NCBI GenBank assembly: GCA_028753945.1
Contig: JAPNXP010000007.1
Span: 682,001-746,000, forward strand
Direction: 5' to 3'
DNA from: Hexactinellida sp. DTS-2022
Taxonomy: Eukaryota > Porifera > Hexactinellida
Length of the DNA: 64,000 nt
Position numbers and translations under genes: made by a program. Numbering within the stretch: position 1 is the stretch's first letter; each line of letters begins with the position of its first letter. Positions 2,766-39,339 of this stretch are shown here, one piece after another. The notes beneath the pieces are model-generated. The model saw nothing but the letters and a program-made list of their open reading frames with translations. It was not told the DNA's origin and searched no databases.

Positions 2766-2830
2766 CACTGATTATCTCTGACAACCAATTAATACTTAAA
2801 TAATCTAATCTACTTCTATCAACGAACCAA

Positions 2831-4051
2831 ATGGCAGCTCGCTATCCCATTCCCCCTCCAGCAGCAGACCCCGTAGAGACACAAATAAACAGAGCCATAG
2901 ACGGCCTCATAGAGCTACTGAATCTCCGCAGAGCTCAGCTGCTGACTCAGGTCCGCGACGCACGCGAGGAGGAGAGAGCCGCAGAGGTGGCTCGACAAGA
3001 AATGCACACACAACTAACCACCGCCCGGACACACCTCCTAAACGATTTGAAGGAGAACCCCCTAAAGTCCATACAGGAGAGAATGGTATCAGAACTGGAT
3101 ACGAAACTGAGGGAACTAAGAAAGAATATTCCAGCTGAGACAGAATTCCAGTGGCAGTGTGACACACGAGACCTCGAAGTGAGCATTTCCCGTCTCGGAG
3201 AGAGTGTACAGTTGTATCAGCCTAACTACGCTACATTCCATTTACCAAGTGTCGCTACTGGGGAAGAAGGTTCAGGTCCTGGCGAGCTGTATTGTCCATC
3301 AGGCGTAGCTATTAATGAAGCTACAAACCAAATATTTGTAGCAAATGGTGTCAATCACAGAATAGAGATATTCTCTGAAACGGGAGACTATATCAACCAG
3401 TTTAGCGTCGGACAGGTGGATCCATGGGGCATAGCTATTCATGGAAATAGCGTGTTTGTTAGTAGCAACGAGAATCACACTGTAAGCAAATATTCGCTAA
3501 CCGATTTTAGCTTAGTTAAGCGAATAGGCGAGAAGGGATCGAATAACGGACAATTCAACAGTCCTTTCCAACTAACAACAGATCCCAATGGAGATGTGTT
3601 CGTAGCAGATTGCGGTAACAACAGAATCTGTGTACTCAACACAGATTTAAACCATCTGAGGAACATAACCCATCAGTCAATTCTCATACCACATGACGTC
3701 AAAGTATCGCATGACCGCGTATACATACTGTGTCCATACGAGAATCCATGTATGCTGGTACTGTCACTAGAGGGAGACATGCTACACTCTCTCATTAGCT
3801 GTGGAGAAGGAATGGATGTGTTATACCCATTGTTCTTCTGTTTGGATACAAATAACAACATTGTTATTAGCGATTACGGCTCACACTCCATTCGTGTATT
3901 CTCCCCAGCAGGCAGCCTCCTACACGACATAGGAAGAGAGGGACACGAACAAGGAATGTTCTATGAACCCCAAGGAATAGCTATAACTACAAACGGGAAA
4001 TTAGTTTGTATGTCATGGAACAACAACTACGGTCTACAAATATTCTGTTAG
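2831..4051 (+). CDS. NHL-repeat protein B (coiled coil + NHL propeller)
   Basis: Intronless gene of 406 codons and near-copy of the divergent gene at 910-2133. Same architecture: N-terminal coiled coil (~10-110), then about six NHL blades (~150-406) with motifs such as PSGVAINEATNQIFVANG and NNRICVLNTDLNHL. No RING or B-box. Both copies keep a full open frame, so neither looks like a pseudogene. Most differences fall on loop residues of the propeller, for example around residues 215-225 and 340-350, which would suit diversification of a binding surface. That last point is inference and needs a dN/dS count. A TATA box lies 73 bp upstream and an AATAAA follows the stop by 31 bp. Confidence 0.87.
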   Translation: MAARYPIPPPAADPVETQINRAIDGLIELLNLRRAQLLTQVRDAREEERAAEVARQEMHTQLTTARTHLLNDLKENPLKSIQERMVSELDTKLRELRKNIPAETEFQWQCDTRDLEVSISRLGESVQLYQPNYATFHLPSVATGEEGSGPGELYCPSGVAINEATNQIFVANGVNHRIEIFSETGDYINQFSVGQVDPWGIAIHGNSVFVSSNENHTVSKYSLTDFSLVKRIGEKGSNNGQFNSPFQLTTDPNGDVFVADCGNNRICVLNTDLNHLRNITHQSILIPHDVKVSHDRVYILCPYENPCMLVLSLEGDMLHSLISCGEGMDVLYPLFFCLDTNNNIVISDYGSHSIRVFSPAGSLLHDIGREGHEQGMFYEPQGIAITTNGKLVCMSWNNNYGLQIFC

Positions 4052-23639: not shown

Positions 23640-25663
23640 GAACATAGGGGGCTCTCACAACGCGTTCTCAATGCCCCAGGTCTCTCCTGGCTCCGCTATA
23701 ATCGGGAGTCCGAGCAGAGGAAGTGGCGTGTTGATGGGAGGGACACACGGATCTGGTCCGGGCATGATTGGGATGGGGATGTCTGTTAGCAAACCGAATA
23801 TGAGATTAGGGGGCGTGGGGATATCGCAGCCTGGTAACTTCCCTGGAGGTAAGGAATGTAAGGAATCTCCGCTTAATAGAGCCACCGGTTAATAGATTTC
23901 TCCGGTTAATGGGGTAAAAATTTCACATGATTTATAGAACGGAATGACAGTTTGGCTTAAAATATTTTCGGTTAATAGATTTCTCCGCTTAATCGGGTCA
24001 AAGTAACCTGGTCCCGAGGTGACTCTATTAAGCGGAGTCGACTTATGATACATTATATGCGAAGCACAATTCACGTGTTATAAGAACTTAATTATTTCCC
24101 GATGTGCTTTTATTTATATGGTGATAAATACGCGTGTTGGGTATTGTAAGCTTATGTTTATTTTTATTGAAAATCTATCGAATATATATATATACGAGCC
24201 CTTCGGTCTCAGTCGCTTTGCGACAGATCGGTGCTACGCACCTCAAGTTAACGGCCGCTGTGCGGCCTTACTCCTCACACTTTCTACCATGGAAATGGTA
24301 GAAAGGGGCGTTATGATTTTGAATTTTTTATTAATTTGTTTACCTATTTGTGTAAACAACAACAACAACAACAAATACTCATATTAGAATTTTATAAATG
24401 CGAAAATCGTGTTCATCATCTTGTTTACCTATTATAACCCGTTGAAAGCTAACTTCTAGGTTGATTTTGAATTTTCATTAATTTGTTTACCTATTTTGTG
24501 TAAACAACAACAAATATTCATATGAGAAATTTTTAAACGCGAAAATCGTGTTCAGCATACTTGTTTACCTATAATACTCGTTGAAAGCTAACTTCTAGGT
24601 TGATTTTGAATTTTCATTAATTTGTTTACCTATTTTGTGTAGACAACAACAAAAAATATTCATATGAGAAATTTTAAACGCGAAATTCGTGTTCAGCATA
24701 CTTGTTTACCTATAATACTCGTTGAAAGCTAACTTCTAGGTTGATTTTGAATTTTCATTAATTTGTTTACCTATTTTGTGTAGACAACAACAACAAATAT
24801 TCATATGAGAAATTTTTAAACGCGAAATTCGTGTTCAGCATACTTGTTTACCTATAATATCCGTTGAAAGCTAACTTCTAGGTTGATTTTGAATTTTCAT
24901 TAATTTGTTTACCTATTTTGTGTAAACAACAACAAATATTCATATGAGAAATTTTTAAACGCGAAATTCGTGTTCAGCATACTTGTTTACCTATAATACT
25001 CGTTGAAAGCTAACTTCTAGGTTGATTTTGAATTTTCATTAATTTGTTTACCTATTTTGTGTAGACAACAACAAAAAATATTCATATGAGAAATTTTAAA
25101 CGCGAAATTCGTGTTCAGCATACTTGTTTACCTATAATACTCGTTGAAAGCTAACTTCTAGGTTGATTTTGAATTTTCATTAATTTGTTTACCTATTTTG
25201 TGTAGACAACAACAACAAATATTCATATGAGAAATTTTTAAACGCGAAATTCGTGTTCAGCATACTTGTTTACCTATAATATCCGTTGAAAGCTAACTTC
25301 TAGGTTGATTTTGAATTTTCATTAATTTGTTTACCTATTTTGTGTAAACAACAACAACAAATATTCATATGAGAAATTTTTAAACGCGAAATTCGTGTTC
25401 AGCATACTTGTTTACCTATAATACCCGTTGAAAGCTAACTTCTAGGTTGATTTTGAATTTTCATTAATTTGTTTACCTATTTTGTGTAGACAACAACAAC
25501 AAATATTCATATGAGAAATTTTTTAACGCGAAATTCGTGTTCAGCATACTTGTTTACCTATTATAACATTTGTTTACCTATTATAACATTTGAAAGTTAG
25601 TTTATATCTCAATATTAATTGCGGTTTCTATTCCCCCAATCACTTTAATACAATCCGGACAAA

Positions 25664-25699
<36 letters not shown>

Positions 25700-28059
25700 A
25701 CAATCGAGATTTAATAATATAGATAGTCAGGTCTGCTTTTATGAACAAGATTTCGTCTGCTTATTATGAAGATTTATTATTATGAACAAGCCCTATGGTC
25801 CCAATTTAACAATTTACATAGGGTTTGTATTAAGTCGAGTTCGCTTATTATGAAGTCTCTCTATGATGAACACAATTTTTGGTCCCATTGAATGTTCATA
25901 ATAAAAGAACCTGACTGTATATACATATGGTACAGTCGACTCCGCTTAATAGAGTCACCTCGGGACCAGGTTGCTTTGACCCGATTAAGCGGAGAAATCT
26001 ATTAACCGGTGGCTCTATTAAGTGGAATCAACTGTAGTTAATACAAACTTATAATCGTTATTCACCAGGCACAATTCACGTGTTATAAAAAGTTAATCAT
26101 TTCCCAATGTGCTTTTTTTCTACTTATTTATTGTAGGTCTCTCCAGCATAGATTCCACGTCTCCGAATATTGATATTTCAGATTTCCCGACTTTGAGAGG
26201 AATGGGATTAAGAAGAGACATTCCTCAGTCTCTCCCTAACAACCAATCCTTACAGTTCCCACACAACCCAAGTTCCCAAATGGGATTCCATAACCAGCAC
26301 CAAATGCACTCCGTACAAACGCCACAGGTAATTATACTAGGGCACTCTAATTGGTAGAGCAAATTCATTTTCTCGTTAGTACGTACTTGATTATTACATA
26401 AATCCGGTTAATATATTACCTACATTGTTTCGGTCAAAGACATTTAATACATTGAAATACAGACTCATACAGTAGACTCGTGAATAGGAACACCAGGTCG
26501 AAATATGTTCGTATTATCTGGAATTCGTGTTAATCGGAGTCACTAGCATGCACTTGTATAGGCTAGGGTAATTAAATCTTATACTCCTTAACCAATTTTC
26601 GCCTTATCCGTGTTCCTATTAATGGAAGTCTACTGTAAATGATTTCTAATAAGTGAATAAGTGGAATCAATTTAACAGTCCCCCTGGTGTTCATATTAAC
26701 GAGAGTCTACTATACTTGATTAGTACGAAATTCCGATTAATACACATACAGTAGAACCTTGTTCGCTTTATCCGGAGTTCGTATTAACCGGAGTAATACC
26801 CATTGAATAGCCATTGTAGGGACCATATTTTGTGGAACTGTTTGTTCTTCTTATCCGTAAATTCGTATTAACCGTGTTCGTACTAACGAAGTTCTACTGT
26901 ACTTCTTTTAAACATGAGTTAATTACTGATATGAAGACTAATTTAACAATCCCTTGTATTCGTAGTAGTTTTTATACTTTAATAATTCCTGATATAGAAT
27001 ACAGTCCCCTGGTGTTCGTATTAACTATAGTTGCTAGAATATTCTAGAACATTCCTTTGTCCCTAGGTCCCAGAGCCAGTAGCGGAGTTCCAGATGCATC
27101 ACGAGGACTTCCCTGCTCTCCCCGGTCTCAACACGGACGCTAATCACGAACAGCAAAACTCCGTTCATTCCATCTCTAATTCCAACCCCGCGAACACTGT
27201 TATAACACCAGGACCAGTTACCTACCAAACCAAACTTAACACAAACCTTACTACCGCATCAACTAACTTCTCAACAGTAGCCAGTACTCAGTTAAACTCC
27301 AATAGTGACACTAGAAACACGTTACACTACGATTTAGCTCCTGGGTCTGGTAAGGACCGAATAATTACTATTCCAACACCAATTGGGCCGCCGAATAAAT
27401 CTACGAAAGACCGCGTGCAAGATGGAGTGTCTATGGTTTCCATTCCAGAAGGCATGGTCCGTAACCAGTTTGGTATGTTCGGACTTTTGACATTCATTAG
27501 AGCAGCAGAAACAGACAATAAGCTAGTCTCGCTCGCTTTAGGTAGCGACTTAACTACTCTAGGGTTAAACCTTAATTCCCCGGAAAGTCTGTTCGCTTCA
27601 TTTTCAAGTCCTTGGTCGGATACACCAGCCAGGCCACAGGATATCGATTATCACGTTCCGCAGGAATATATTATAAATCTGCGAATTCGCGATAAACTTG
27701 CACCTATAAGGCTTAATAAATATGGGGACGAATTATTGTTCTATCTATACTATAATAACGGTAATGATATATTACAAATGTACGCAAATTATGAGCTACA
27801 AACGCGAAATTGGAGATACCATAAAGACGAAAAAGTTTGGATAATGAAAGCACAAGGAATAGATCCTATAACGAGATCGCATGTACATGAACAAGGCACC
27901 TATGCAGTATTTGATGTAAAGCAATTCAAAAAGGTACATAGAGAAATGACAATTGAATACAGTAAACTAGAAGAAAGGCATTATTCAAATATGAATATTC
28001 CACCACACAATAACAATAACAACAATATGTACACATATCCTAAACCAGATTTGAATTAG
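21485..28059 (+). CDS. CNOT2: CCR4-NOT complex subunit 2
   Basis: Four exons: 21485-21725, 23483-23848, 26137-26327 and 27067-28059, all with GT-AG junctions in compatible phases, giving 596 residues. CNOT2 is a scaffold subunit of the CCR4-NOT deadenylase, which shortens mRNA poly(A) tails. Exon 1 encodes a disordered N-terminus; exon 2 a poly-Gln tract (~residues 113-132) and a Gly/Met-rich stretch; exon 3 the SPNIDISDFPTL motif; exon 4 the HHEDFPALPG motif, then the conserved PxGMVxxQFGMxGLLTFIRAAE segment and the C-terminal NOT box (DWRYHKEE-like RNWRYHKDEKVW, near the end). The C-terminus is Asn-rich. Introns 1-3 are crowded with MITEs, and intron 2 contains a 1.5-kb composite repeat. 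A TATAAATA lies at 21452-21459 and an AATAAA at 28101. Confidence 0.92.
21752..21919. mobile_element. N-family MITE (TAGACGGTCTA type)
   Basis: CTTATATGTAGACGGTCTAT at left and TAGACGGTCTCATATAAG at right. Inner words AAATTTGTAGACCGTCTAT and ATAAAAGCCC are shared with 45088-45256. Lies 26 bp after the CNOT2 exon 1 donor. Confidence 0.75.
21980..22146. mobile_element. C/D-type MITE
   Basis: TACAGTAGACACTCGTTAGT at left, ACGAGGTTCTACTGTA at right, in CNOT2 intron 1. It mixes the C and D words. Confidence 0.75.
22158..22309. mobile_element. D-family MITE
   Basis: GTTATTACGAACACGGATAT at left (terminus decayed), CGAGATTCTACTGTA at right, in CNOT2 intron 1, 12 bp from the previous element. Confidence 0.7.
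22675..22828. mobile_element. D-family MITE
   Basis: TACATTCTACTCTTGTTAGG at left, AACGAGAGTCTACTGTA at right; interior GGAACACCAGGGGACCGTCG. CNOT2 intron 1. Confidence 0.75.
23308..23432. mobile_element. C-family MITE, internally deleted
   Basis: TACAGTAGAGCCTGCTCACG at left, CTAACGAGGTTCTACTACGTA at right (last bases decayed). It lies 50 bp before CNOT2 exon 2. Confidence 0.65.
23580..23639 (+). repeat. CAA microsatellite coding poly-Gln
   Basis: An almost pure run of about twenty CAA codons ending in CAG within CNOT2 exon 2. The purity suggests recent expansion. Shorter runs occur at 40978-41000, 48726-48746 and 57489-57510. Confidence 0.9.
23861..24045. mobile_element. B-family MITE next to a splice donor
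   Basis: Starts about 12 bp after the CNOT2 exon 2 donor with AATCTCCGCTTAATAGAGCC and ends CTATTAAGCGGAGTCGACTTA. Termini are partly decayed. Confidence 0.75.
24192..25725 (+). mobile_element. Composite element T, copy 1 (hairpin string, 140-bp array, microsatellite)
   Basis: Lies in CNOT2 intron 2. The 5' end is a row of small GC-rich hairpins, mostly with 3-nt loops: 24196-24210, 24212-24224 (GTCGC-TTT-GCGAC), 24230-24242 (GGTGC-TAC-GCACC) and 24253-24267 (GGCCGC-TGT-GCGGCC), plus an AT-richer one at 24281-24304. Then come about nine ~140-bp tandem units (24313-25585), two short CCTATTATAACATTTG repeats, a GCGGTTTCTATTCCCCC block, an (AC)n run at 25666-25694 and the end AATCGAGATTTAATAATATA. 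A shorter inverted copy is at 38120-38845, so the boundaries come from comparison. The layout recalls Helentron-associated elements, but classification is open. Confidence 0.75.
24313..25585 (+). repeat. ~140-bp tandem array with trimeric higher-order repeat
   Basis: Unit starts (TTGATTTTGAATTTTCATTA) at 24461, 24600, 24741, 24883, 25022, 25163, 25305 and 25447, with a diverged first unit at about 24313. Spacings run 139, 141, 142, 139, 141, 142, 142. The variants between GTGT and ATATTC repeat in the same order (AAACAACAACA, AGACAACAACAAAAA, AGACAACAACAACA), so three units form a 422-bp higher-order repeat that was duplicated. Confidence 0.9.
25724..25919. mobile_element. E-family MITE abutting element T
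   Basis: Left end TAGTCAGGTCTGCTTTTATG joins directly to the end of element T; right end AAGAACCTGACTGTA. CNOT2 intron 2. Confidence 0.8.
25931..26036. mobile_element. B-family MITE, short form
   Basis: TACAGTCGACTCCGCTTAAT at left, AAGTGGAATCAACTGTA at right, 106 bp, in CNOT2 intron 2 close to exon 3. Confidence 0.85.
26468..26637. mobile_element. D-family MITE
   Basis: TACAGTAGACTCGTGAATAG at left, ATGGAAGTCTACTGTA at right, in CNOT2 intron 3. A half copy follows at about 26640-26716. Confidence 0.8.
26747..26901. mobile_element. C-family MITE
   Basis: TACAGTAGAACCTTGTTCGC at left, CTAACGAAGTTCTACTGTA at right, in CNOT2 intron 3. Confidence 0.8.
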
Positions 28060-28100
28060 ACCAGCTTGTTATTAGGAATGGAAAAGACTAATCACTGTTA

Positions 28101-28106
28101 AATAAA
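28101..28106 (+). terminator. Poly(A) signal of CNOT2
   Basis: AATAAA 41 bp after the CNOT2 stop codon. Confidence 0.5.
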
Positions 28107-28404
28107 TCCAATCCTCTACTCACACTATATTCTATAACTCTAATTATCATTGATAAAACAGAGTTTTACTCTTTTTATGTCTTGTGTCCTTAGCTCTCTT
28201 CTGGTGTCAATACTGCTTTATCAAACGAGTTGAATGTTGTTGGTTCAATATTATTATTATTATTATTATTGTTAGGTATTATTGTGGACAATTATTAAGA
28301 CGTTCGGTTTGAGGAAATTGCACACATTTAATATGAAACAATTTCAGTTTATACCCGAGTCGGAAAATACAGTATCCACTGTATAATTATTGAAGGAACT
28401 TATT

Positions 28405-28545
28405 ATATGTCTGCCAACACCTTTTCTAGTGTAATTCTCAGGAACTGGTAAGGTAATTTTCAACATAAAAAATTCACCCTTGTGATTCGGGTTTAAATTA
28501 AAAAGGTGTTAACCGAAATCAATGCTATGCCGAAATATAATTAAA
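28405..28545. repeat. K-family inverted repeat (CCAACACCTTTT ends)
   Basis: CTGCCAACACCTTTTCTAG at left and AAAAAGGTGTTAACCGAAAT at right. Related pieces occur at 8735-8765, 10868-10885, 44018-44036, 48484-48610, 53305-53425 and 63136-63238, several with TTGCAAGTGGC or CTGGCTTCGTAAAG inside. Confidence 0.5.
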
Positions 28546-28696
28546 TCTTTAATTAAATTATATTTTCTCGAATATTATAGTATAGCCATTTCATTTGTTA
28601 GTTAATTCGATAGAAATAAGCTTTTACTTCTAAACAAAATCGTAAATCAAGGTCCCTATAATTTCTATATTTGGAGATCCCAAAAATCTCGATAAT

Positions 28697-28859
28697 CCCT
28701 AGTTCAGCTATTCCCAACCATTTTCAACCTTTTACAACCGTGGACCCCTATAAAAATATTATTCATTATGTGGACTGTGGACTCCTCCCATTGTCCGTAA
28801 TACTAATACATCTTGTGGACTCCACCCAGATTGGGAACCACTGCTCTTTTTCCCTAGTT
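28697..28859. mobile_element. hAT-like element, relative of 8509-8622
   Basis: Body 28705-28843 starts CAGCTATTCCCAACC and ends ATTGGGAACCACTG, with AACCGTGGACCCC inside. CCCTAGTT is found at 28697-28704 and again at 28852-28859, but the right copy is displaced by 8 bp (CTCTTTTT lies between), so the duplication is imperfectly placed. Confidence 0.7.
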
Positions 28860-29053
28860 AGTTAATGTCCCAAACTGTTCTATGAAAAGCTTGTACTGTA
28901 ATTGGTTAGATCCGTCGTTTTAAATGTACACATTTTGTCTAAATATACGACCAAACATTATCTTTACAATTTCGTAAATTCTACTAATGTATTAGAACTC
29001 GTTTAATACATATCTGGAGGTATTTTCGTCTAAATTTAACTATAATCTGCTAA

Positions 29054-29206
29054 TACAGTAGAACCTCGGTAGTACGAACACAGGTTAATTAAAATACAAA
29101 TACTATTTCAGTTCCATTCAAAGCATTTCCAAACGAATTACATCGGTTAATACGAATTCTGGATAAGGCGAACACATTTTGACAGTCCCCTGGTGTTTCT
29201 ACTGTA
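29054..29206. mobile_element. C-family MITE
   Basis: TACAGTAGAACCTCGGTAGT at left, TGGTGTTTCTACTGTA at right, upstream of the STKLD1-like gene. Confidence 0.8.
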
Positions 29207-29215
29207 TTATACAAT

Positions 29216-29358
29216 TACAGTGGATGCCGGTTATAAGAATATCGTTGGGAACTATTATATAATGTTCTTATAACCGACATAAATTATATAGGGTATATGG
29301 CAACCGTTTCCAATGTAATGTTCTTATAACCGGATTCTTATATCCGGTATCTACTGTA
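29216..29358. mobile_element. A-family MITE ending 38 bp before a start codon
   Basis: TACAGTGGATGCCGGTTATA at left, CCGGTATCTACTGTA at right. The STKLD1-like ATG is at 29397, so this element must contribute to its promoter or leader unless an unseen upstream exon exists. Confidence 0.8.
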
Positions 29359-29396
29359 GACTACCTAACTGACTCCCTATAATATCTATTTATAGA

Positions 29397-32300
29397 ATGC
29401 TCAAATACAGAGCTGTATCGCACTTGGACGGTTCCAGCGCTTATAAGGTGCAAGAGCGGGGAACTAACAAACAGTATATTTTGCGTAGAATCGAAGTTGG
29501 AGACCAGAGTATAGCGGACACAGCTAATAAGCAGTTTAATGACGTCATAAGTAACTGTATTGGTAATACACGGGTTGCCAAGTATATAGAATGCTTTATA
29601 AATTTCAGCAAACTCGAATCTGCTTTATATCTATGCTTAATCGGGGAATTGTTTCCAATGGGAAGTTTAAAATGTTTGCTTTCAGAACGCAAAGAGAGTA
29701 TTATTTCTATTGGAGAAGTAATGAAGTGGTACGGGCAGTTATTGGAAGGAATGGAAGAGTTTCACAGGGAAAATAGAATGCATAGGAGAGTTAGCAGTTC
29801 TAATGTGTTCGTCAGGGATACCGGATTGGTACTTGGGTATGTTGGTTTGCAGATAGAAGAAGGTAATACTATTATTTATAATATTCTGCTTAGATACCAA
29901 AGTTAACTATAGTAATGCTTATTATCTAGGTATTTTATTTTTATATATTTTGGAAAATATAGTACTTTGATTAGTTGTTTGCATCTCTAGGAATTAATTT
30001 CTTTGTTAATTTAAACATTTTTATCAATGTTTCAAATTCTTAGGTTTTATCCGCATTATTTCATCAAGTTTTGGTCTTAATTCCCAAAACCAATATTTGG
30101 CTGTTATTCAGTCTATGTATGAATTAGAAATTTAATAATTCGTGTTTGACAAAGTAAATATATTGACATCTGTAGGTATTTAGTAAGATTTTTTAGTTAA
30201 AATATTAGGATTTTATGAGATTAGTTAGCATTGGTAAAATAGACTTATTTATTTATGAATATTATTTACTTTTTATGTTTTTAGACTTTTTCTGATATTC
30301 TCGGTATATTTCAGTTAACAGATAATTAGCTAGACTATTTATTTGTATTTATTTAATAGGTGATATAAGAAGGGAATTCAAATCAATTATTCCTCCTAAC
30401 TACCATAACGCACCCAAGAATGCTAACAGAGAACTTACTTCAAGTTTCGATATTTGGTGTTTGGGTATTCTCCTATTGGAGATTTGTGCAAACTCGTTTG
30501 ATGGTTTGAGTGAGTTAGAATCTCAGCTGTGTGGAAATAGCGATGAACAAATAGCTTTGGAAATACAGAAACTTATGGATTCCATTGAGAATATTTACGG
30601 CAAAGAATTGGTTAATGTACGTAGTACCAATTGCGGAGTAGATTAGTATTAGCATAGTTTACATAAAGTAGATAGTTTTTGAGTTATGGCTCAATTTAGG
30701 AAATATACATTTACCTGGCAACCGAGGAATGTCAACATTCCATTTATAATTTCGATATATTTCATTCAACAAGTTATGGACATCCTCAAGTTCCAATTTT
30801 GAACATTTATAACGCGTTTAACTATGTTAAAAGCAGGCTATAAAAACACGATAATTCCCACGAAAAATAGCGATTACGTAATCAATTGGTGATATATCAC
30901 AATTCTAAAGGGTGTTATGTATGCCTTGATATCATGTTCCTAACTTCCTATACAATTATAATGCATTTCTCAGGTCTGTCATTACTAGCTATTGAGATAA
31001 AGATAAGTCACCTATTTATCAATGGCCTTTAAGTAATCCATGGTTCGGAGTAGTAGTAAGGCCTTATATAACGAAGGTCACGCATCCACCAACCACTAAA
31101 AGATAGTGCTTCCAAGTTACCATGCGACAGCACAGGTGTAATTTTAGATTTTTTGTTGTTGTTCGTTGTTGATTATTTGTTGTTTGTTTATTCGATTTTT
31201 TTTGTTTTTTTGTCTAAGACTCTAAGTCACTATACTATATATGTTCTTGAATCTACTTATTATTGCATTCCACCCACCCCGATATGTAACTACCCTATTC
31301 CTACAGGTAATATCTGAATGCCTACAGCTGAGCTCTGCCGACAGATGTTCCATAGCACATCTCTGTTCTCTCACATTCACACAGGACTGTCTCTCTATAA
31401 TCTCCTCTCCTCTCCTTACCCGTATCAGGTCACAGGAGCTTATTAATCTCCCTGCTACACCTAATGCACCTTTTGCCATACACACTGTAGTACAGTATAT
31501 GAGGGATAATTGTACCATTCGTCAATGCCAGTTAATGGGTATAGAAATGATGCTTATTTGTGTGAATGAAAATAGTGAGGTATTGAATAACTCGGATAAG
31601 AGGTTTATACGCTCTGTTATTGAAGAATATTCTGGAATAATAATGTTCGAATTGGCTTTTGTTAAATTGTTAGTTTCTAGCTTAAGATATTCTCAAGATG
31701 ATTCTATGGAGGTATTCTTAACCCATTCGTATATTAATATTGTGGCTACCATAGCTATGCGACAGACAGGTTAGTAGTAGTATATATATTTACTTACTTA
31801 CGTATACAGTCAACTCCGCTTAATAGAGTCACATCGGGACCAGGTTACTTTGACCCGATTAAGCGGAGAAATATTAACCGAAATTATTTTAAGCCAAAAT
31901 GTAACTCTGTCCTATAAATCCTGTGAAATTTTGACCCAATTAAGCGGATAAATCTATTAACCGGTGGCTCTATTAAGTGAGTCAACTGTAGTTAACTATA
32001 GATAGCTATACAGTAGATGTCGGATATAAGCACACCGGTTATAAGAACATATCGGATATAAGAACACTGTGTTGAAAAACTGTTGCCATATACCCTATAT
32101 AATTTATGTCGGTTTTAAGAACATACCGGTTATAAGCACACTATATGCAATTCCCGACGATGTGCTTATAACCTATAACCGACATCCGACACCCACTGTA
32201 TAGGCTATACATAGTATAACTTTAGTATTATCGGACTATGGATAACATTATTATTTGTAGATCCAACAGAGCTGTTTGGCATATGCTGTGTGTATCTCCT

Positions 32301-33391
32301 GATGGTTTCATTTCACGATAACAACTCCACTACAGTAGCTAGCTATGGGATAATACCACACGTCTTACAAGTTGTATATCTCTCTAATACGGATACTAAT
32401 CCCATTTGTATAACTCACGCTTGTAGCTTGTTATGGGGCCTAGCTGTGTCGCCAGTAAACCTACGTGCATTAACCGAGGTGAGTATCCGATTTGTGAGAG
32501 TACAAAGTACGAATGTTTTGAACGCTAAACTCCGTTAATTATACACTATTTTACTATTTTGTAATATAAAACATGGTATGTTACATACAGTAGACTCTTG
32601 TTAATATGAACAAAGTTTAATTATCCTAGCCTATACAAATACATGCAAGTGACTCCGGTTAATACGAATTTCAGGTTAACGCGAACAAATTTCGACGGTC
32701 TCCTGGTGTTCCTATTAACGATATAATCTACTGTGTTGGTTACCCCCTCTTTCATTGGAAGCATTATGTAACGTTTGAACTATTAATATAAGGCGGTTTT
32801 AATAATTCAATACTGTAAATTTGTCTGTAATAAATAAAACACTAAAATATTTACCAATTTAGTATGATACATTATATTATCTATTATCATAGGCTATGCT
32901 ATTATCTATTCCCTTAGCTAAACACGCTTGAATGGACCATGGAGATAATACAACATTTTCAAGATAATCCCACTGTTCTTAATCCCTCGTTTAACCTTCT
33001 ATGGAGTTTGTTGCAGGATAATATTAATCGTGATAAGGCGTACTATCTCGATATAATTAATGTTTGTATCGGAGTTGTAAACAAATATTCCTCTCTACTT
33101 GAGTTGTGTAGTGTTGTGCTAAGTGTTCTTGTTGTTGTTTGTGAAATTGAAAGTTGCGCTTTTCAACTGTTAGCTGATGAGAGCTCTGGATTGCTTGCTT
33201 TGTTAGAATTTATGAAAAATGAATTTTCACACTTGCAAATTGTTATGAAAACAATTGAGCTTTTGAAAGTACAATTCAAATACAAGGATTTGAAGGAAGA
33301 AATATTATCACTGGAATTGAGAGAGATTTTACAAAATTGGTTTGAGAAAACTCAGTTTACAATCTTAAATGAATTTATTGAGAAACTATAG
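29397..33391 (+). CDS. STKLD1: STKLD1-like pseudokinase with helical repeats
   Basis: Five exons: 29397-29862, 30360-30616, 31307-31769, 32261-32478 and 32918-33391, with matching phases, giving 625 residues. Residues ~1-280 are a protein kinase fold that has lost catalysis: the HRD motif is HRR, the metal-binding DFG is absent and the usual VAIK lysine region reads YILRR. The structural DIWCLGILLLE helix and SSADRCS motif remain. The rest is alpha-helical with Leu-rich pairs typical of ARM/HEAT-like repeats. The start (MLKYRAVSHL) and the order of parts match STKLD1 as I remember it, a poorly studied animal pseudokinase. Introns contain B, A and D MITEs and a fold-back fragment. Confidence 0.7.
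30655..31030. mobile_element. Fold-back element O, partial copy
   Basis: In STKLD1-like intron 2. It matches, in order, the inner right arm (60745-60950) and then the outer right arm (62207-62560) of the element at 60.1-62.6 kb, with no insertion between, through words such as TTTTTGAGTTATGGC, GGCAACCGAGGA, ATAACGCGTTTAACTATGTT and ATATCACAATTCT. Confidence 0.65.
31078..31163. mobile_element. H element, right half
   Basis: TAGTGCTTCCAAGTTACCAT, then GCACAGGTGTAATTTTAGAT: the right half of the hairpin at 7147-7318. A T-rich GTTGTT run follows at 31160-31214. Confidence 0.5.
31805..31990. mobile_element. B-family MITE
   Basis: TACAGTCAACTCCGCTTAAT at left, TAAGTGAGTCAACTGTA at right, STKLD1-like intron 3. 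Confidence 0.85.
32009..32200. mobile_element. A-family MITE, long form
   Basis: TACAGTAGATGTCGGATATA at left, CCGACACCCACTGTA at right, 192 bp. The right end carries a small duplication (ATAACCTATAACCGACATCCGACA). Confidence 0.85.
32586..32735. mobile_element. D-family MITE
   Basis: TACAGTAGACTCTTGTTAAT at left, ACGATATAATCTACTGTG at right, STKLD1-like intron 4. Confidence 0.8.
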
Positions 33392-33957
33392 TTTATATAA
33401 CAGAGCTATCCGATCATTTATTTATATGTTTTTATGGCATATATGGTATACTTATTTATCTATATAAACCCACATATTTTGTTTGTTCGAAATTCGATTT
33501 TATTGGAGAACTGGTAAGAAATGCAGATTTGAAATTTCGCAGCATGAAGGGTAATATTGTATCTAATAACTTGTTTGAATATTTAAGTAAATACTTATAT
33601 TTCCCCCACAAAATGAATTTTTTTAATCAATTAAAAATTGTCCCAATATGGATATTATTAGCATTCTTACTAGTATATTTTAGTGTCTCTATCATTTGTT
33701 AAGTGTTTATTATCTATAAGGCTCAGAGAAAAAGCCTGGCCTTTTTGAGACTGTAATATAATTAATTTATAGTAAATTTACTATTCCATTCATTTGTATC
33801 CCGTCTACCTTTCCTTTAACCGAAATGGGATCAATTTTATTCGTGCTTTTAATCAATCCTATACAAACTGTTAAATTAAATTAGATTAATAGAGTTGTTC
33901 ATAGTATATATACAGGTTGTTTTTCCTTTTACTTATCCGTAGTTAGAATATTAGCAA
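33392..33957. other. Spacer between STKLD1-like and MICU genes
   Basis: About 570 bp of AT-rich sequence. I see no repeat family member and no clear poly(A) signal or TATA box. Confidence 0.5.
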
Positions 33958-36900
33958 ATGGCCTTAAACAGATTATTATTATTCTCAATTCGTTCAATCC
34001 CTACTCGCCGTATATTCCCTATACTAATCACGTCATCACACCAATACAATACAAACTATACAAACACTCGGTTTCATAAAACCAGATTTGAATGGAAAGG
34101 GAATTCCTATGTGTATTTGGCTAGTGGTGTAATTCTGACTGGTTATTTGCTATACAAACAGTATTACGGTACTACTAATGTACTGTGTGATACGGTAGGA
34201 GATGGAGAGGATAATATCCAAGAGAAAACAGATGCTTTTAAGAAGAGATACACAATGAATTATGAGAATAGAATTAGAATGTATTCTCTACCCGACAAGA
34301 TATTTAGGTACTCTAATTTCAAATATTTGTATCCAATTCAGTACCGATATTTGAGTTCAATATACAGTAGACTCTCGTTATTACAAACACCAAGGGAGCA
34401 TCGAAATTTGTTCTTATTATCCGGAATTCGTATTAACCGGAGTCACTTGCATGTATTTGTATAGGCTAGGGGAATTAACCTTGTACTCCTTAACCGATAT
34501 TTCCTTTTAACGAGAGTCTACTGTAAATGTTCTGTTTTGTATTCATCTACAAGGTTAAAACAATCAAATAATCGACATAAAGAACTCGAAATTTGATTTC
34601 TCATAATTTCAAAAATTATATTATAATTGAATATTGGTTTTAATTATATGTTATTGTTGTTATTTTGTTTATTTATTGTCAGATATTTCGCTTCTATTCA
34701 AGTTGAGTTCCCAGATGGACGAACAGAAGTGTTTATGAATCCAGATGATTTCGTTCGGTCAATAATCCCAAATGAAATGCAGCCTAAAAACGTAGATTTA
34801 GACCATTTCCATAAAGTGAAATGGGATTCAATTGCACTCAGACAACTATCCGCTTCTAAAAGCACTAAAAACACAAAATTCTTTCACGCTTTATCTACTA
34901 ATAGCAATGGATTAATATCTCTATCTGAATATATATTCTTATTAACTATACTGATGGTTCCCAAACGAAAGTTAGAGCTTATTTTCAAAGCTATGGATTT
35001 GTCTGGAGACAATCTTATAGAGTTTGATGAGTTCCATCAAATAGAACATTTAATTCGGTCTCGTTATTCCGGTCTAAATGTCGTGTCTGCTAATCTTAAC
35101 AACAAAGGAGGGTTAGGTATGGAAATATAGTAAATTATAATTTAGCAATGAAGACAGTAGACTCTCGTTAATACGAACACGGATAAGGCGAAATATCGGT
35201 TATGGAGTACAAAGTTTAATTTCATAGACTATACTCAAGGAATTATCCAAGAGCGCGAGACGCTCCTTTTGGAGTAGAATTTTTTGGAAAATTTATTTAG
35301 GAGCGCAAAAATTTGGAATCCTCTCCTATACAATAACATTAATTTGTGATTTAGGCGTATGAAAATTTCATCAGACCAGGATTAGGAGCGTATTTACAAA
35401 TGGCTGTATAATACACTGAATTACAAATGTATACAAGTTAATACGGATTTTTTGACGGTCCCTTGTGTTCGTATTAACAAGAGTCTACTGTAATTAGTTT
35501 ATATTCCCTAATCACTTTAACAAATTAGACGATATTATTATAGTCTATTTGGTTGTTTGTTTGAATTGGGAGTAATATGGTTACAAAGTTCAATACCACT
35601 ACCAATAAAAAATATTAATTATATTTGTGAATTGTAATGCTATTCAATAGACAGACTGCTGTCTACTCCTTGGTTAATCAATTAATTAACAATTGCTCGA
35701 AAACACAATCAGATTCACTAATTATTTATTTACTCATTTTATTATGAAAACCTATGCTTATCAATTTAGGTTATAATTTTAGGGAATTTTTGGGGAAATT
35801 TAGGCAAATCATCAAAAATTCACCTTTCGAAGCCTGATTTTATATTTGGCCGATATAATACTACAATCCCTAATTCTAGCGTGGAATATGTTGTTTCAAT
35901 ATAGTAAATTTCATTATAACTAAGTCCAAGCGACCCTTAGTTTAATTCGGTATAAGCGAGTAAATTAAACTACTTTATCATTCTGGGAATATACGTAATA
36001 GCAAGTCGCATTTTGCACGAAATATGCTTGCTAATAGGCGAACTTGCTATTAGAGGAACTGAATTAACATTAAACGCTCGTTTGGGGACTGAAAACAATT
36101 TGCTATTAGACCAACACAACTGTAACTTCGTTATAACAGAAATTTATTGTAGATTATTTATTTTGCTCTCTAGGCGAATATCTGTTTGGGAGAAATCTGA
36201 ATAAGAAACTAAGTTTGCAAGAAATAGAAACGTTCTATGACGATATACACCAAGATATTCTCACTATGGAGTTTAACATCTACAAACCTGTGGAGGGGAA
36301 ATTAACGGAATATAATTTCGCGAAATTTCTCATAAACAGTTGTGATTTTAAGCAAGACAAAGTCGAAGAATATCTTAAACGAATCGAGAACAAATTTGGT
36401 AAAAAAATTGTAAAAGGGATTTCTTATAAACAAGTGGAACAGTTGATGACTGCCGTTAAAGATATTAATAGCATAGACGTGGCTCTTAATATGTATTTTA
36501 TGGACGGACTGTCTATACCACAAGATGAGTTCAGGTGAGAGCATTCTGATAATAACTAACTTAACGTATTTAATCGAATTGTAGTCTAGGCGATTGATAA
36601 TTTTAGCCCTCAAAAGGGGCGATTATTTGAGTTGAACTAGTGCAGTAATTTTTTTTAAATTTGTCTTCGGACAAATATCTTCATATAGAGTTTGTCCAAT
36701 CTTATTTTTAATGTGTTTTATGACACATTCAGACATGATGTAACAATATTATTAATTTCAGGATTTCGCAACTTAATGAACATCTGACCTAAATTCCCTT
36801 ATTGAAATGTAACAGTCTATTTCTTATAATTTTGCAATAACTTATATGCAGACCGTAAATTTCTAGATCAGGTTTTCTTTACGTAAATAGTATTACCCCA

Positions 36901-39339
36901 TGACGGCACGGTCTTTGTCTTCAAATTTATTTACTGTCTACAATTTTAGCATACAGTGGTGTTCGCTTAAACGAAATTTGTTTGCTAATAAGCAACTTGC
37001 TATTAGAGGAATAAAACTAACATTAATTGCCTCTTTTTTGAGACAAAAAATTGATAATAGAGCAATTGATATTGTGCGAAACTACTGTAGTTTGTATATG
37101 GCCTTATATAGACCGTCTACATACAACGAAGCTCATTAATTAAAGCTTCATAAGACCCAATCGATATATTGATCTGTTAGTGTTGCTCGTTATGTCATTT
37201 TACTATATCTGACTTAAAAATTAATCTATTTTAAGAAACTTTGTTCATAATAGGCACACATTCCTATGTAGTGATAATTATTACTCCTAAGTATACTAAG
37301 TTTCATAAAGTAAGTGTTCGGACATTACGTATTATCTTTTACGTGGTCATTTTATTTGAGACTTTTCAAGAATATTTTGGACTTTTTCATCAAGGCAATT
37401 ACAGTGTATACTCTCGTTAGTACTACACGTTTAAAACGAATTTCTGTTAACTATTTCCGCCCCTTCAAAGCTTTTTAAGTTTTCGTGACAACAAATAATA
37501 CGAATTTGGGATAGAAAGACAAACATTTTTGAGGGTCCATTGGTGTTCATGGCTAATAAATAGTGTGCAACCTAGATTCTTTATTTTTCTTTACATTAAG
37601 TTTGGAAAATAGATTGTCATTTTATTGAATTTACCATAGTATCAAAATGAATTGTATACAGATTTATGCAAAAATCTACAAATATATTTATGGGCGAGCA
37701 TGTTGTGTAACAATTTGTGTTAATAATTTCAGTCATTTTTGCACATTCGCCAAATGATATTTTAAAATCTACACTTAAAACACTTATCAGCTCACTCAAA
37801 CGATTGAATAATATTATCTTAATAGCTACTACATATTTGTGCTAGCAGACATTTTTACCACCAAATCTCTAGACACATATTTTTTTCAATCTCAGTTTTA
37901 TATTATTGCTATAAAAATAGTGTTCATAATAGAGAGACTTCATAATAAGCGAACTCAACTTAATACAAACCCTATGTAAGTTGTTAAATTGGGAACTTAG
38001 GGCTTGTTCATAATAATAAAAATTCATTTAAGCAAACGAAAAATTGTTCACAATAAGCCACCTGACTGTATATATAATGATGACATAAAAATTTAATTTT
38101 ATAATAATCATGGGACAATTATCTATATTATTAAATCTCGATTGTTGTGTGTTTGTGTGTTTGTGTGTTTGTTTGTCCGGATTGTATTAAAGTGATGGGG
38201 GAATAGAAACCGCATTTATATATAAGACATAAACTAACTTTCAAATGTTATAATTGGTAAACAAATGTTATAATTGGTAAACAAATGTTATAATTGGTAA
38301 ACAAGTATGCTGATTTCGAATTTCGCATTTACAAATTTATAATATGAATATTTGTTGTTGTTTACACAAATAGGTAAACAAATTAATGAAAATTCAAAAT
38401 CAACCTAGAAGTTAGCTTTCAACGGGTATTATAGGTAAACAAATAGCTGAACACGAATTTCGCACTTCTAAATTTATAATATGAATATTTGTTGTTGTTT
38501 ACACAAATAGGTAAACAAATTAATGAAAATTCAAAATCAACCTAGAAGTTAGCTTTCAACGGGTATTATAGGTAAACAAATAGCTGAACACGAATTTCGC
38601 ACTTCTAAATTTATAATATGAATATTTGTTGTTGTTGTTTACACAAATAGGTAAACAATTAATCAAAATTCAAAATCAATCCAGAAGTTACCTTTTAACG
38701 GGTACGTATTATAAGTATATAACTATGACAAATATTACTAACTATGTAATCAATTGTTTAGTGAGGAGTAAGGCCGACTAGCGGCCGTTACCTAGAGGTG
38801 CGTAGCACCGATCTGTCGCAAAGCGACCGAGACCGAAGGGCTCGTTTAATATGAATTCACTATTTAAATATTCTCTTATCAACGGTATTTATTCTCTTAC
38901 CAATGGGTATTACTTTTGAAAGATTTTGTAGATCTCATATTTGCGGCGATTTCACAGCTAATTTTAAAGGAATTTATAAGTGCCCGTATACGTGAACGAA
39001 AATATGTATTTTCCCGCTTCATAATTTATTGAATTTCATCAGTACTTATCCGTAGCCATAACGAATAAGCCCCCATTTATCACAATGCATTATAGGTACG
39101 TAATTGGGTGCATAACAAAGATAGCACTCGACGAGCACCTTGTGAGTGTGCTATTCACTCTACTGGACCAGGACGGAGATGGTATGTTGAGTAGAAAGGA
39201 ATTCGTTCGTGTTATAAAACGTAGATCTGCGAGAGGGTTTAATAAACCGCGAGATTTAGGTTTCGCAAGGGCACTATCAGCACTTTATGAATGTGGAAAG
39301 GAAGTCTATCTAACTAATACACAGGCTCAGTCGTCTTAA
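33958..39339 (+). CDS. MICU1: Mitochondrial calcium uptake protein (MICU1-like)
   Basis: Four exons: 33958-34307, 34683-35116, 36174-36534 and 39096-39339, phases 2, 1 and 2, giving 462 residues (human MICU1 is similar). It is the EF-hand gatekeeper of the mitochondrial calcium uniporter in the intermembrane space. Exon 1 has an Arg-rich targeting start, a hydrophobic segment (YVYLASGVILTGYLLY) and the conserved YENRIRMYSLPDKIFR, completed as YFAS across the junction. Exon 2 holds the first EF-hand (DLSGDNLIEFDEF), exon 4 the last (DQDGDGMLSRKEF). Both keep Asp at positions 1 and 5 and Glu at 12, so calcium binding looks intact. Between them lie two non-canonical EF-hands, as in the family. 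MICU1 versus MICU2/3 is not settled. Confidence 0.9.
34363..34525. mobile_element. D-family MITE
   Basis: TACAGTAGACTCTCGTTATT at left, AACGAGAGTCTACTGTA at right, 56 bp after the MICU exon 1 donor. Confidence 0.85.
35153..35492. mobile_element. D-family MITE interrupted by an hAT-like element
   Basis: Outer ends ACAGTAGACTCTCGTTAATA and CAAGAGTCTACTGTA. At 35236-35418 it is interrupted by CAAGGAATTATCCAAGAGCG...TGTATAATACACTG, a relative of the hAT-like elements at 51901-52046 and 39405-39606. MICU intron 2. Confidence 0.75.
35999..36124. mobile_element. F-family MITE, decayed ends
   Basis: AGCAAGTCGCATTTTGCACG, GCTTGCTAATAGGCGAAC and TTGCTATTAGACCAACAC. A G-family fragment (TTTCATTATAACTAAGTCC, GGTATAAGCGAG) lies just before it at about 35885-35960. 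MICU intron 2. Confidence 0.65.
36842..37127. mobile_element. N-family MITE interrupted by an F-family MITE
   Basis: Outer decayed N ends (TATATGCAGACCGTAAATTT and CTTATATAGACCGTCTACATA) surround an F element 36952-37089 (TACAGTGGTGTTCGCTTAAA to GAAACTACTGTA). MICU intron 3. Confidence 0.65.
37400..37560. mobile_element. C/D-type MITE, decayed
   Basis: TACAGTGTATACTCTCGTTA at left; GGGTCCATTGGTGTTCAT at right with the end lost. MICU intron 3. Confidence 0.5.
37915..38070. mobile_element. E-family MITE near element T copy 2
   Basis: GTGTTCATAATAGAGAGACT at left (terminus lost) and AAGCCACCTGACTGTA at right. It lies 50 bp from the 3' end of element T copy 2. Confidence 0.7.
38120..38845 (-). 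mobile_element. Composite element T, copy 2 (inverted, shorter array)
   Basis: Reverse orientation relative to copy 1, in MICU intron 3. Reading on the plus strand: TATCTATATTATTAAATCTC, a GTGTGTTT microsatellite, GGGGGAATAGAAACCGC, three 20-bp repeats of AAATGTTATAATTGGTAAAC (38245-38303), about three ~140-bp units, then the hairpin string: 38772-38786 (GGCCG-ACTAG-CGGCC), 38797-38809 (GGTGC-GTA-GCACC), 38815-38827 (GTCGC-AAA-GCGAC) and 38829-38843. The same parts in the same order as copy 1 define the element. Confidence 0.75.

Follow-up and report, generated by a model that had tools for sequence, protein, structure and literature searches.

Multi-hairpin Helitrons with a self-stacking habit in a hexactinellid sponge

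Introduction

What kind of element ends in a string of small hairpins, and what might such a string do? The question is raised by two loci in a 64,000-nucleotide stretch of the genome of Hexactinellida sp. DTS-2022 (assembly GCA_028753945.1, contig JAPNXP010000007.1, 682,001 to 746,000), referred to here as the window, whose own numbering is used for all window positions. An earlier note on this DNA described the loci as two inverted copies of a composite element of hairpins, tandem array and microsatellite, with some likeness to Helentron-associated elements. Both loci are most probably non-autonomous Helitrons mobilised by a Rep-helicase (RepHel) protein, with the hairpin row as a reinforced terminator, a reading to which we give a probability of roughly 0.85. 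The elements belong to the Helitron superfamily, as a variant with several hairpins and a habit of stacking on one another, and do not form a new element class.

The window loci were read directly and scanned for tandem repeats. In Helitron orientation the layout runs from A|TCTATATTATTAAATC through a microsatellite, a 136-142-bp array and the hairpin row to GGGCTCG|T, where a bar marks the point of joining. All the parts listed in the earlier note are found at their places in both loci, and the exact bounds can be set at 24195-25723 (copy 1) and 38122-38844 (copy 2). The orientation had however been reversed: what was taken for a fixed AT-rich end is the 5' terminus with its TC, and the hairpins lie at the 3' terminus.

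Ends, target site and copy number

Patterns from both ends recur throughout the 112.4-Mb genome. At up to three mismatches, the first two hairpins give 3076 matches, against none for the reversed pattern, and the first 23 nucleotides of the 5' end, TCTATATTATTAAATCTCGATTG, give 1446, against 0 and 2 for controls. Twenty-five complete short copies of 355 to 1529 bp were collected, both window copies included, with anywhere from none to eight array anchors per copy. Three copies of 962 bp are mutually 99.8-99.9% identical, and the spread of these copies was thus probably recent.

The bases flanking the ends were collected from fetched loci, leaving out L001 and L026 as duplicate or overlapping. 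The base after the hairpin end is T in 39 of 40 cases, and the base before the TC end is A in 23 of 31. Five of the eight exceptions at the 5' side can be accounted for, since L003, L004, L011 and L018 adjoin another Helitron end and one L025 end seems to be interrupted by a repeat; the plain mismatches are L024 (G), the other L025 end (C) and L028 (T). The 3' terminus is CTCG in nearly all ends seen, and CTAG in L058. To define the target site, the two flanks of each of 26 copies were joined and set against all fetched loci. The element in L007 lies within a 47-bp tandem repeat whose period is preserved exactly in the joined flanks, while that in L024 lies within another copy and the joined length fits; there is no duplication at either site. 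Insertion takes place between A and T, without target duplication. Replitrons, which are described as making a target duplication of 2-8 bp (PMC10741241), were rejected as candidates on the evidence of these two sites. Direct terminal repeats of 5-11 bp are a further mark of Replitrons.

A retroelement derived from a short or long interspersed nuclear element (SINE or LINE), with a microsatellite as its tail, would find some encouragement in apparent short duplications in L014, L023 and L028 and in the tail-like GGACAAACACACA. Short flank matches are however expected, because the flanks are AT-rich, and no duplications are present at the resident-repeat sites. This reading, which is scarcely credible, was rejected, since the reverse strand shows Helitron ends and full-length partners coding for RepHel were found. 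A comparison by eye of reverse transcriptase hits with the first 100 of the 3076 hairpin positions gave no convincing pairing.

Autonomous partners and class assignment

The genome has at least 151 matches to Helitron_like_N (150 candidates scored), and those near known ends led to two full-length partners, X and Y. Partner X (C1:2899100-2911099, minus strand) extends for 10,713 bp from A|TCTATATT to GGGCTCG|T, with the same 5' end, array and hairpin row as the short copies, and carries an intact open reading frame (ORF) of 1902 amino acids. In a Pfam scan its protein matches Helitron_like_N (484-664), PIF1 (1120-1338), Pif1_2B and OTU, with no endonuclease domain at E 0.001, and it aligns to Helraiser (PDB 7lcc) with 1069 bits over residues 90-1587. 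Partner Y (C1:13016100-13028599) is 10,580 bp long, with an ORF split in two frames, and is 97.7% identical to X over 5.6 kb. Against Y, identity reaches 95.4% for copy 1 (1268 bp aligned) and 88.2% for copy 2 (601 bp). The short copies have both ends and the array in common with RepHel-coding copies, and would be mobilised by RepHel in trans. Together with the thousands of end matches, the long coding copies rule out a segmental duplication, the alternative named in the earlier note. Its proposal of a repeated mobile element of the Helitron kind, with defined ends and an unusual hairpin row, is borne out, and the long Rep/helicase copy that it suggested looking for is present as X. A second, apparently intact Helitron_like_N set forms a cluster near 104 bits with ORFs of ~1700 amino acids, possibly of a different Helitron class.

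Non-autonomous Helitrons have the ends of an autonomous element, lack its interior and reach high copy numbers. Unlike other such elements, most of the present copies have kept the variable array (136-142 bp), and a hairpin row forms their end. Three features place them in the Helitron superfamily: a partner protein with Rep (HUH) and PIF1-type helicase parts, insertion at A|T without duplication, and the 5' TC. They are not filed as canonical Helitrons (Helitron1), since these end in CTRR and the elements described here in CTCG. In the canonical form there is also just one hairpin, which lies some 10-12 nt from the 3' end (PMC8969392, PMC5148889), whereas rows of three to five hairpins are found here, the last ending 1 nt from the element end.

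The closest likeness is to the bat element Helraiser (Helibat1), with which the elements have in common a RepHel protein alignable over ~1500 residues, the 5' TC, A|T insertion and a 3' hairpin region. Helraiser itself has one 19-bp palindrome, 11 nt from its CTAG end (PMC4778049). The sponge elements differ in the number and position of their hairpins and in their CTCG end, and have in addition a subterminal array and, in the protein, an OTU match at the C-terminus.

Helentron-associated elements (HINE/DINE) carry an array and a microsatellite between defined ends, and a likeness to this layout is what speaks for a Helentron or HINE (Helitron2 type) element. Helitron2-type elements have a 5' T with insertion upstream of T (PMC8969392) and hairpins at both ends (PMC8969392, PMC5148889); asymmetric terminal inverted repeats are also among their traits. 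By contrast, the present elements start with TC after an A, and their partner protein aligns with Helraiser and has an OTU match but no endonuclease domain in the Pfam scan. The Helentron-like status suggested in the earlier note is therefore very unlikely.

The hairpin row

Copy 1 carries its hairpins on the minus strand, all inside 24196-24305. Counted inwards from the 3' end they are h1 (24196-24210, GAGACC-GAA-GGGCTC, with one A.G mismatch in the stem), h2 (24212-24224, GTCGC-AAA-GCGAC), h3 (24230-24242, GGTGC-GTA-GCACC), h4 (24253-24267, GGCCGC-ACA-GCGGCC) and a fifth hairpin (24280-24305) with an 11-bp stem, CTTTCTACCAT, and a 4-nt loop, TTCC. The row of copy 2 occupies 38772-38843 on the plus strand, with h4 at 38772-38786, h3 at 38797-38809, h2 at 38815-38827 and h1 at 38829-38843. 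The stems of h1 to h3 are identical in both copies, as had been noted before, and h4 of copy 2, although its loop has changed, retains a stem of 5 bp (GGCCG-ACTAG-CGGCC). The four hairpins in a row given in the earlier note are thus present in both copies, but the fifth of copy 1 had been missed. The latter is present in 19 of the 25 complete short copies (at up to four mismatches), and not in X or Y.

Related rows terminate families with other bodies: F2 (L004, L011, L018), F3 (L019, L053-L062) and F4 (L014, L033-L052, L063-L072). The idea of a fixed composite element must therefore be given up, the earlier note itself having named a hairpin row without the array elsewhere as a refutation; such rows fit a transposon end common to several families. 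The row of F1, the family of the window copies, consists of GGCCGC-ACA/ATA/GTA-GCGGCC, GGTGC-GTA-GCACC, GTCGC-AAA-GCGAC and GAGACC-GAA-GGGCTC. F2 rows have mostly GAA loops; the F3 row comprises GGCCGC-GCA-GCGGTC, GGCGT-GAA-GCGCC and GTCGC-AAA-GCGAC, and the F4 row GACCGC-GTA-GCGGTT and GTCGC-GAA-GCGAC. A loose pattern picked up 79 rows, of which 26 contain three triloop hairpins with perfect stems, 10 contain two, 33 one and 10 none; the terminal hairpin, being mismatched, is left out of this count, and some of the 10 zero rows may be chance matches. Stems are broken in many old copies. In one F4 copy (L044, G000:C17:590520-590680) the last two hairpins are merged into one new end hairpin, and matches at C17:563452, 578318 and 599821, which have the same match range, may be sister copies.

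The loops show a marked bias. Read on the Helitron strand, 127 of 131 row triloops are purine-N-adenine (GNA 59, ANA 68), as against 21 of 164 readings in the background (82 hairpins, both strands read). If distinct stem-loop pairs are counted instead of copies, 15 of the 19 listed have this form. That the hairpins exceed chance is shown by the match counts for the first two hairpins and by DNA folding, where the z-scores for the Helitron and the other strand are -3.32 and -2.84 in copy 1, -4.95 and -4.69 in F2, and -3.75 and -4.06 in X. The fold energy of the Helitron strand is lower by 1.2-1.9 kcal/mol in all three strand pairs.

A mechanism can be proposed for the row. RepHel from the ~10.6-10.7-kb full-length partners would nick at A|TC at the 5' end, and the top strand would be peeled off and carried to another A|T site, either as single-stranded DNA or as a circle. 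Once displaced, this strand would fold at its 3' row into a string of small hairpins, stalling the PIF1 helicase, and the stalled helicase would lead to a second cut after CTCG. The 3' hairpin of Helraiser has been proposed to make the helicase pause and so bring about the end cut, with more read-through in its absence; changing its loop cut activity to the level of a hairpin deletion, and stem exchange kept about 90% (PMC4778049). DNA mini-hairpins are extraordinarily stable when a GNA loop is closed by at least two G-C pairs, with a melting temperature of 78 C for GCGAAGC (PMC4686876), and the end hairpins of Fusarium Helitrons have GAA loops (PMC5148889). Taken together with these data, the row is best read as a reinforced terminator acting in the displaced strand.

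Perfect hairpins fold as RNA as well as DNA, and the row of X lies downstream of the ORF, so that the row of a Helitron might instead act in RNA, as a 3' transcript fold or stability element. This is unlikely, however: a search of the window against Rfam gave no match at gathering thresholds, the row of X lies ~3.7 kb past the stop codon, and rows are kept in non-coding copies down to 355 bp, where signals needed in cis for transposition would be expected.

The case for the reinforced terminator also has to be set against several observations. Both the CTCG end and the position of the last hairpin depart from the canonical form, as described above. The 131 loops represent few families and so are non-independent, and more than half of them are ANA, outside the GNA class of documented stability, F1 being regularly GNA only in h1 and h3. 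In X it is the other strand that has the slightly better z-score. Covariation was assessed by pair counting on an alignment (A1) of 20 F1 and F3 rows, 19 of them distinct, with 500 shuffles. The cells paired, the cells changed on both sides and the covariation score exceed all 500 shuffles, but the numbers of both-side-changed pairs and of pair types do not (299/500 and 499/500). Both-side changes are confined to two pairs, both in h3 (T-A to C-G in 7 rows and C-G to T-A in 1), and sliding the pairing by +3 gives a score as high as the true one (0.106 versus 0.105). In the stem covariation check proposed in the earlier note, support for the row stems is thus weak.

Stacking at TCTA|TAT

The elements also join one another in a preferred way. 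A Helitron 3' end abuts an F1 5' end 4 nt inside it, at TCTA|TATT, in 194 places, and an F2 5' end, likewise 4 nt inside, at TCTA|TAT in 220 places (controls 0 in both cases); these figures are counts of junctions and not of proven independent events. At the adjacent A|T, which lies 2 nt further in, the control yielded 0 matches with two mismatches allowed, a stricter limit than the three used for the hot spot. If the 3076 ends fell on A|T sites at random, ~0.4 hits would be expected at the hot-spot dinucleotide, given the AT frequency of the window. In 20 fetched F1 cases the stacked 3' end is F2-like in 15, F3 in one and neither in four (L077, L078, L085, L087), and several families therefore use the site. 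Since the 3' ends of other copies abut inside them, resident 5' ends would appear to serve as preferred targets. No reports of this hot spot or of such hairpin rows were found in searches of open-licence literature, which does not prove their absence.

A second trace lies in front of the chains. All 11 of the outermost chain members whose free 5' end can be recognised (L011, L080, L089, L092, L093, L097, L099-L103) carry extra TCTA units, 1 to 11 in number and preceded by A. None of 22 unstacked F1 ends does; L003 among these is in a boundary-type pair, and L074, matched loosely and not in fact an F1 end, was left out. The units rise with the number of junctions in the chain (Spearman 0.69, p 0.018, n 11). 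The relation is not exact, as would be expected if the repeat also slips. On balance, the evidence leans slightly towards a model in which RepHel docks on a resident 5' end and joins head to tail at TCTA|TAT, one TCTA being left per landing, with the purine-N-adenine-loop rows closing the 3' ends as a multi-step terminator. Chains would grow in this way, and the (TCTA)n microsatellite written beside a chain would be a rough count of landings.

Alternatively, the chains might have arisen by unequal crossing-over, or as rolling-circle multimers that were inserted whole. Helraiser is known to make head-to-tail circles (PMC4778049), and a chain of at least eight F2 units ~561 bp apart (L093, G000:C16:4119700-4124300), with a (TCTA)n run in front, has a three-unit higher-order period, from which it follows that some units were duplicated after insertion. 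The old stacked pair in L024 (74% F2-like), moreover, has TGTA where TCTA would be expected. Multimers would however yield junctions at the very boundary of the element, CTCG|TCTATATT, and for F1 these number 11, against the 194 that lack TCTA. The extra TCTA in all recognisable outermost ends and in no unstacked one, and the landing of F2, F3 and other rows on the same dinucleotide, likewise argue against this origin, which is considered unlikely for the chains.

Repeated landing, in turn, meets with difficulties besides the TGTA of L024. Many outermost ends lie outside the TCTA assessment: L018 and L094 have an altered 5' end, no F2 5' end was found in L095, L098 and L004, L096 is preceded by a boundary-type junction, and the remaining 17 of L073-L092 were also left out, four (L075, L079, L081, L088) being re-hit by another 3' end and 13 lacking a free 5' end that can be recognised in the fetched stretch. 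The outermost ends are F2 and the unstacked ends F1, so that F2 biology could confound the footprint, and the only solitary F2-like 5' end found (L018) is without extra TCTA. Junctions in the fetched loci have the same orientation in 25 cases and the opposite in none, but 22 of the 25 are in loci mostly picked by same-orientation patterns. A long GGTGGAAAATGGTGGAAAA simple-repeat stretch adjoins the F2 end in L018, from ~2250.

A partial parallel exists in the FoHeli elements of Fusarium, which have GAA-loop end hairpins, together with asymmetric terminal inverted repeats and another target, and for which single cases of self-insertion near the 5' end of another copy are reported (PMC5148889). 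In the sponge, by contrast, there are hundreds of junctions at one dinucleotide.

Organisation and surroundings of the window copies

Copy 1 is 1529 bp long and lies on the minus strand, with an A before its TC 5' end at 25723 and a T after its CTCG 3' end at 24195. Beyond the hairpins it has a 142-bp tandem array of 8.8 units (24314-25565), which is also found near the 5' end of X and Y, 20-bp direct repeats (25550-25592), a conserved GGGGGAATAGAAACCGC block (25621-25637), a CA/TG microsatellite (25659-25699) and the AT-rich 5' terminal sequence TCTATATTATTAAATCTCGATTG... (25700-25723). Copy 2, of 723 bp on the plus strand between an A at 38121 and a T at 38845, has the parts of copy 1 inverted in the window: TCTATATTATTAAATCTCGATTG (38122-38144), a TG/TTTG microsatellite (38145-38176), the GGGGGAATAGAAACCGC block (38197-38213), 3.2 units of 20-bp repeats (38242-38304) and 3.0 units of a 137-bp array (38289-38704). 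The arrays, 20-bp repeats and microsatellites are bounded as in the tandem-repeat scan.

Both copies are adjoined by a CAGTCAGGT-type inverted-repeat element (25724-25920 and ~38055), which we take to be pogo-like. On either side of copy 1 lie TTAATAGAGTCACC / GGTGACTCTATTAAGCGGAG repeats (23870-24045 and 25945-26030), which may be a nested inverted-repeat element. At a distance of 1.3 kb from copy 1 there is an ORF with a NOT2/3/5 domain. Elsewhere in the window, two very similar ORFs in divergent orientation (910-2160 and 2804-4051) are presumably NHL-repeat-like.

Implications

For a tandem array of Helitrons in Metarhizium, one survey left undecided the choice between repeated self-insertion and rolling-circle multimers (PMC5148889). 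In the sponge the two can be told apart by the junctions and by the TCTA units left behind, which favour repeated insertion at one dinucleotide. The rows, meanwhile, differ naturally in how many hairpins they have and in the sequences of the stems while keeping one loop type, and the role of the loop in Helitron termination thus becomes directly testable.

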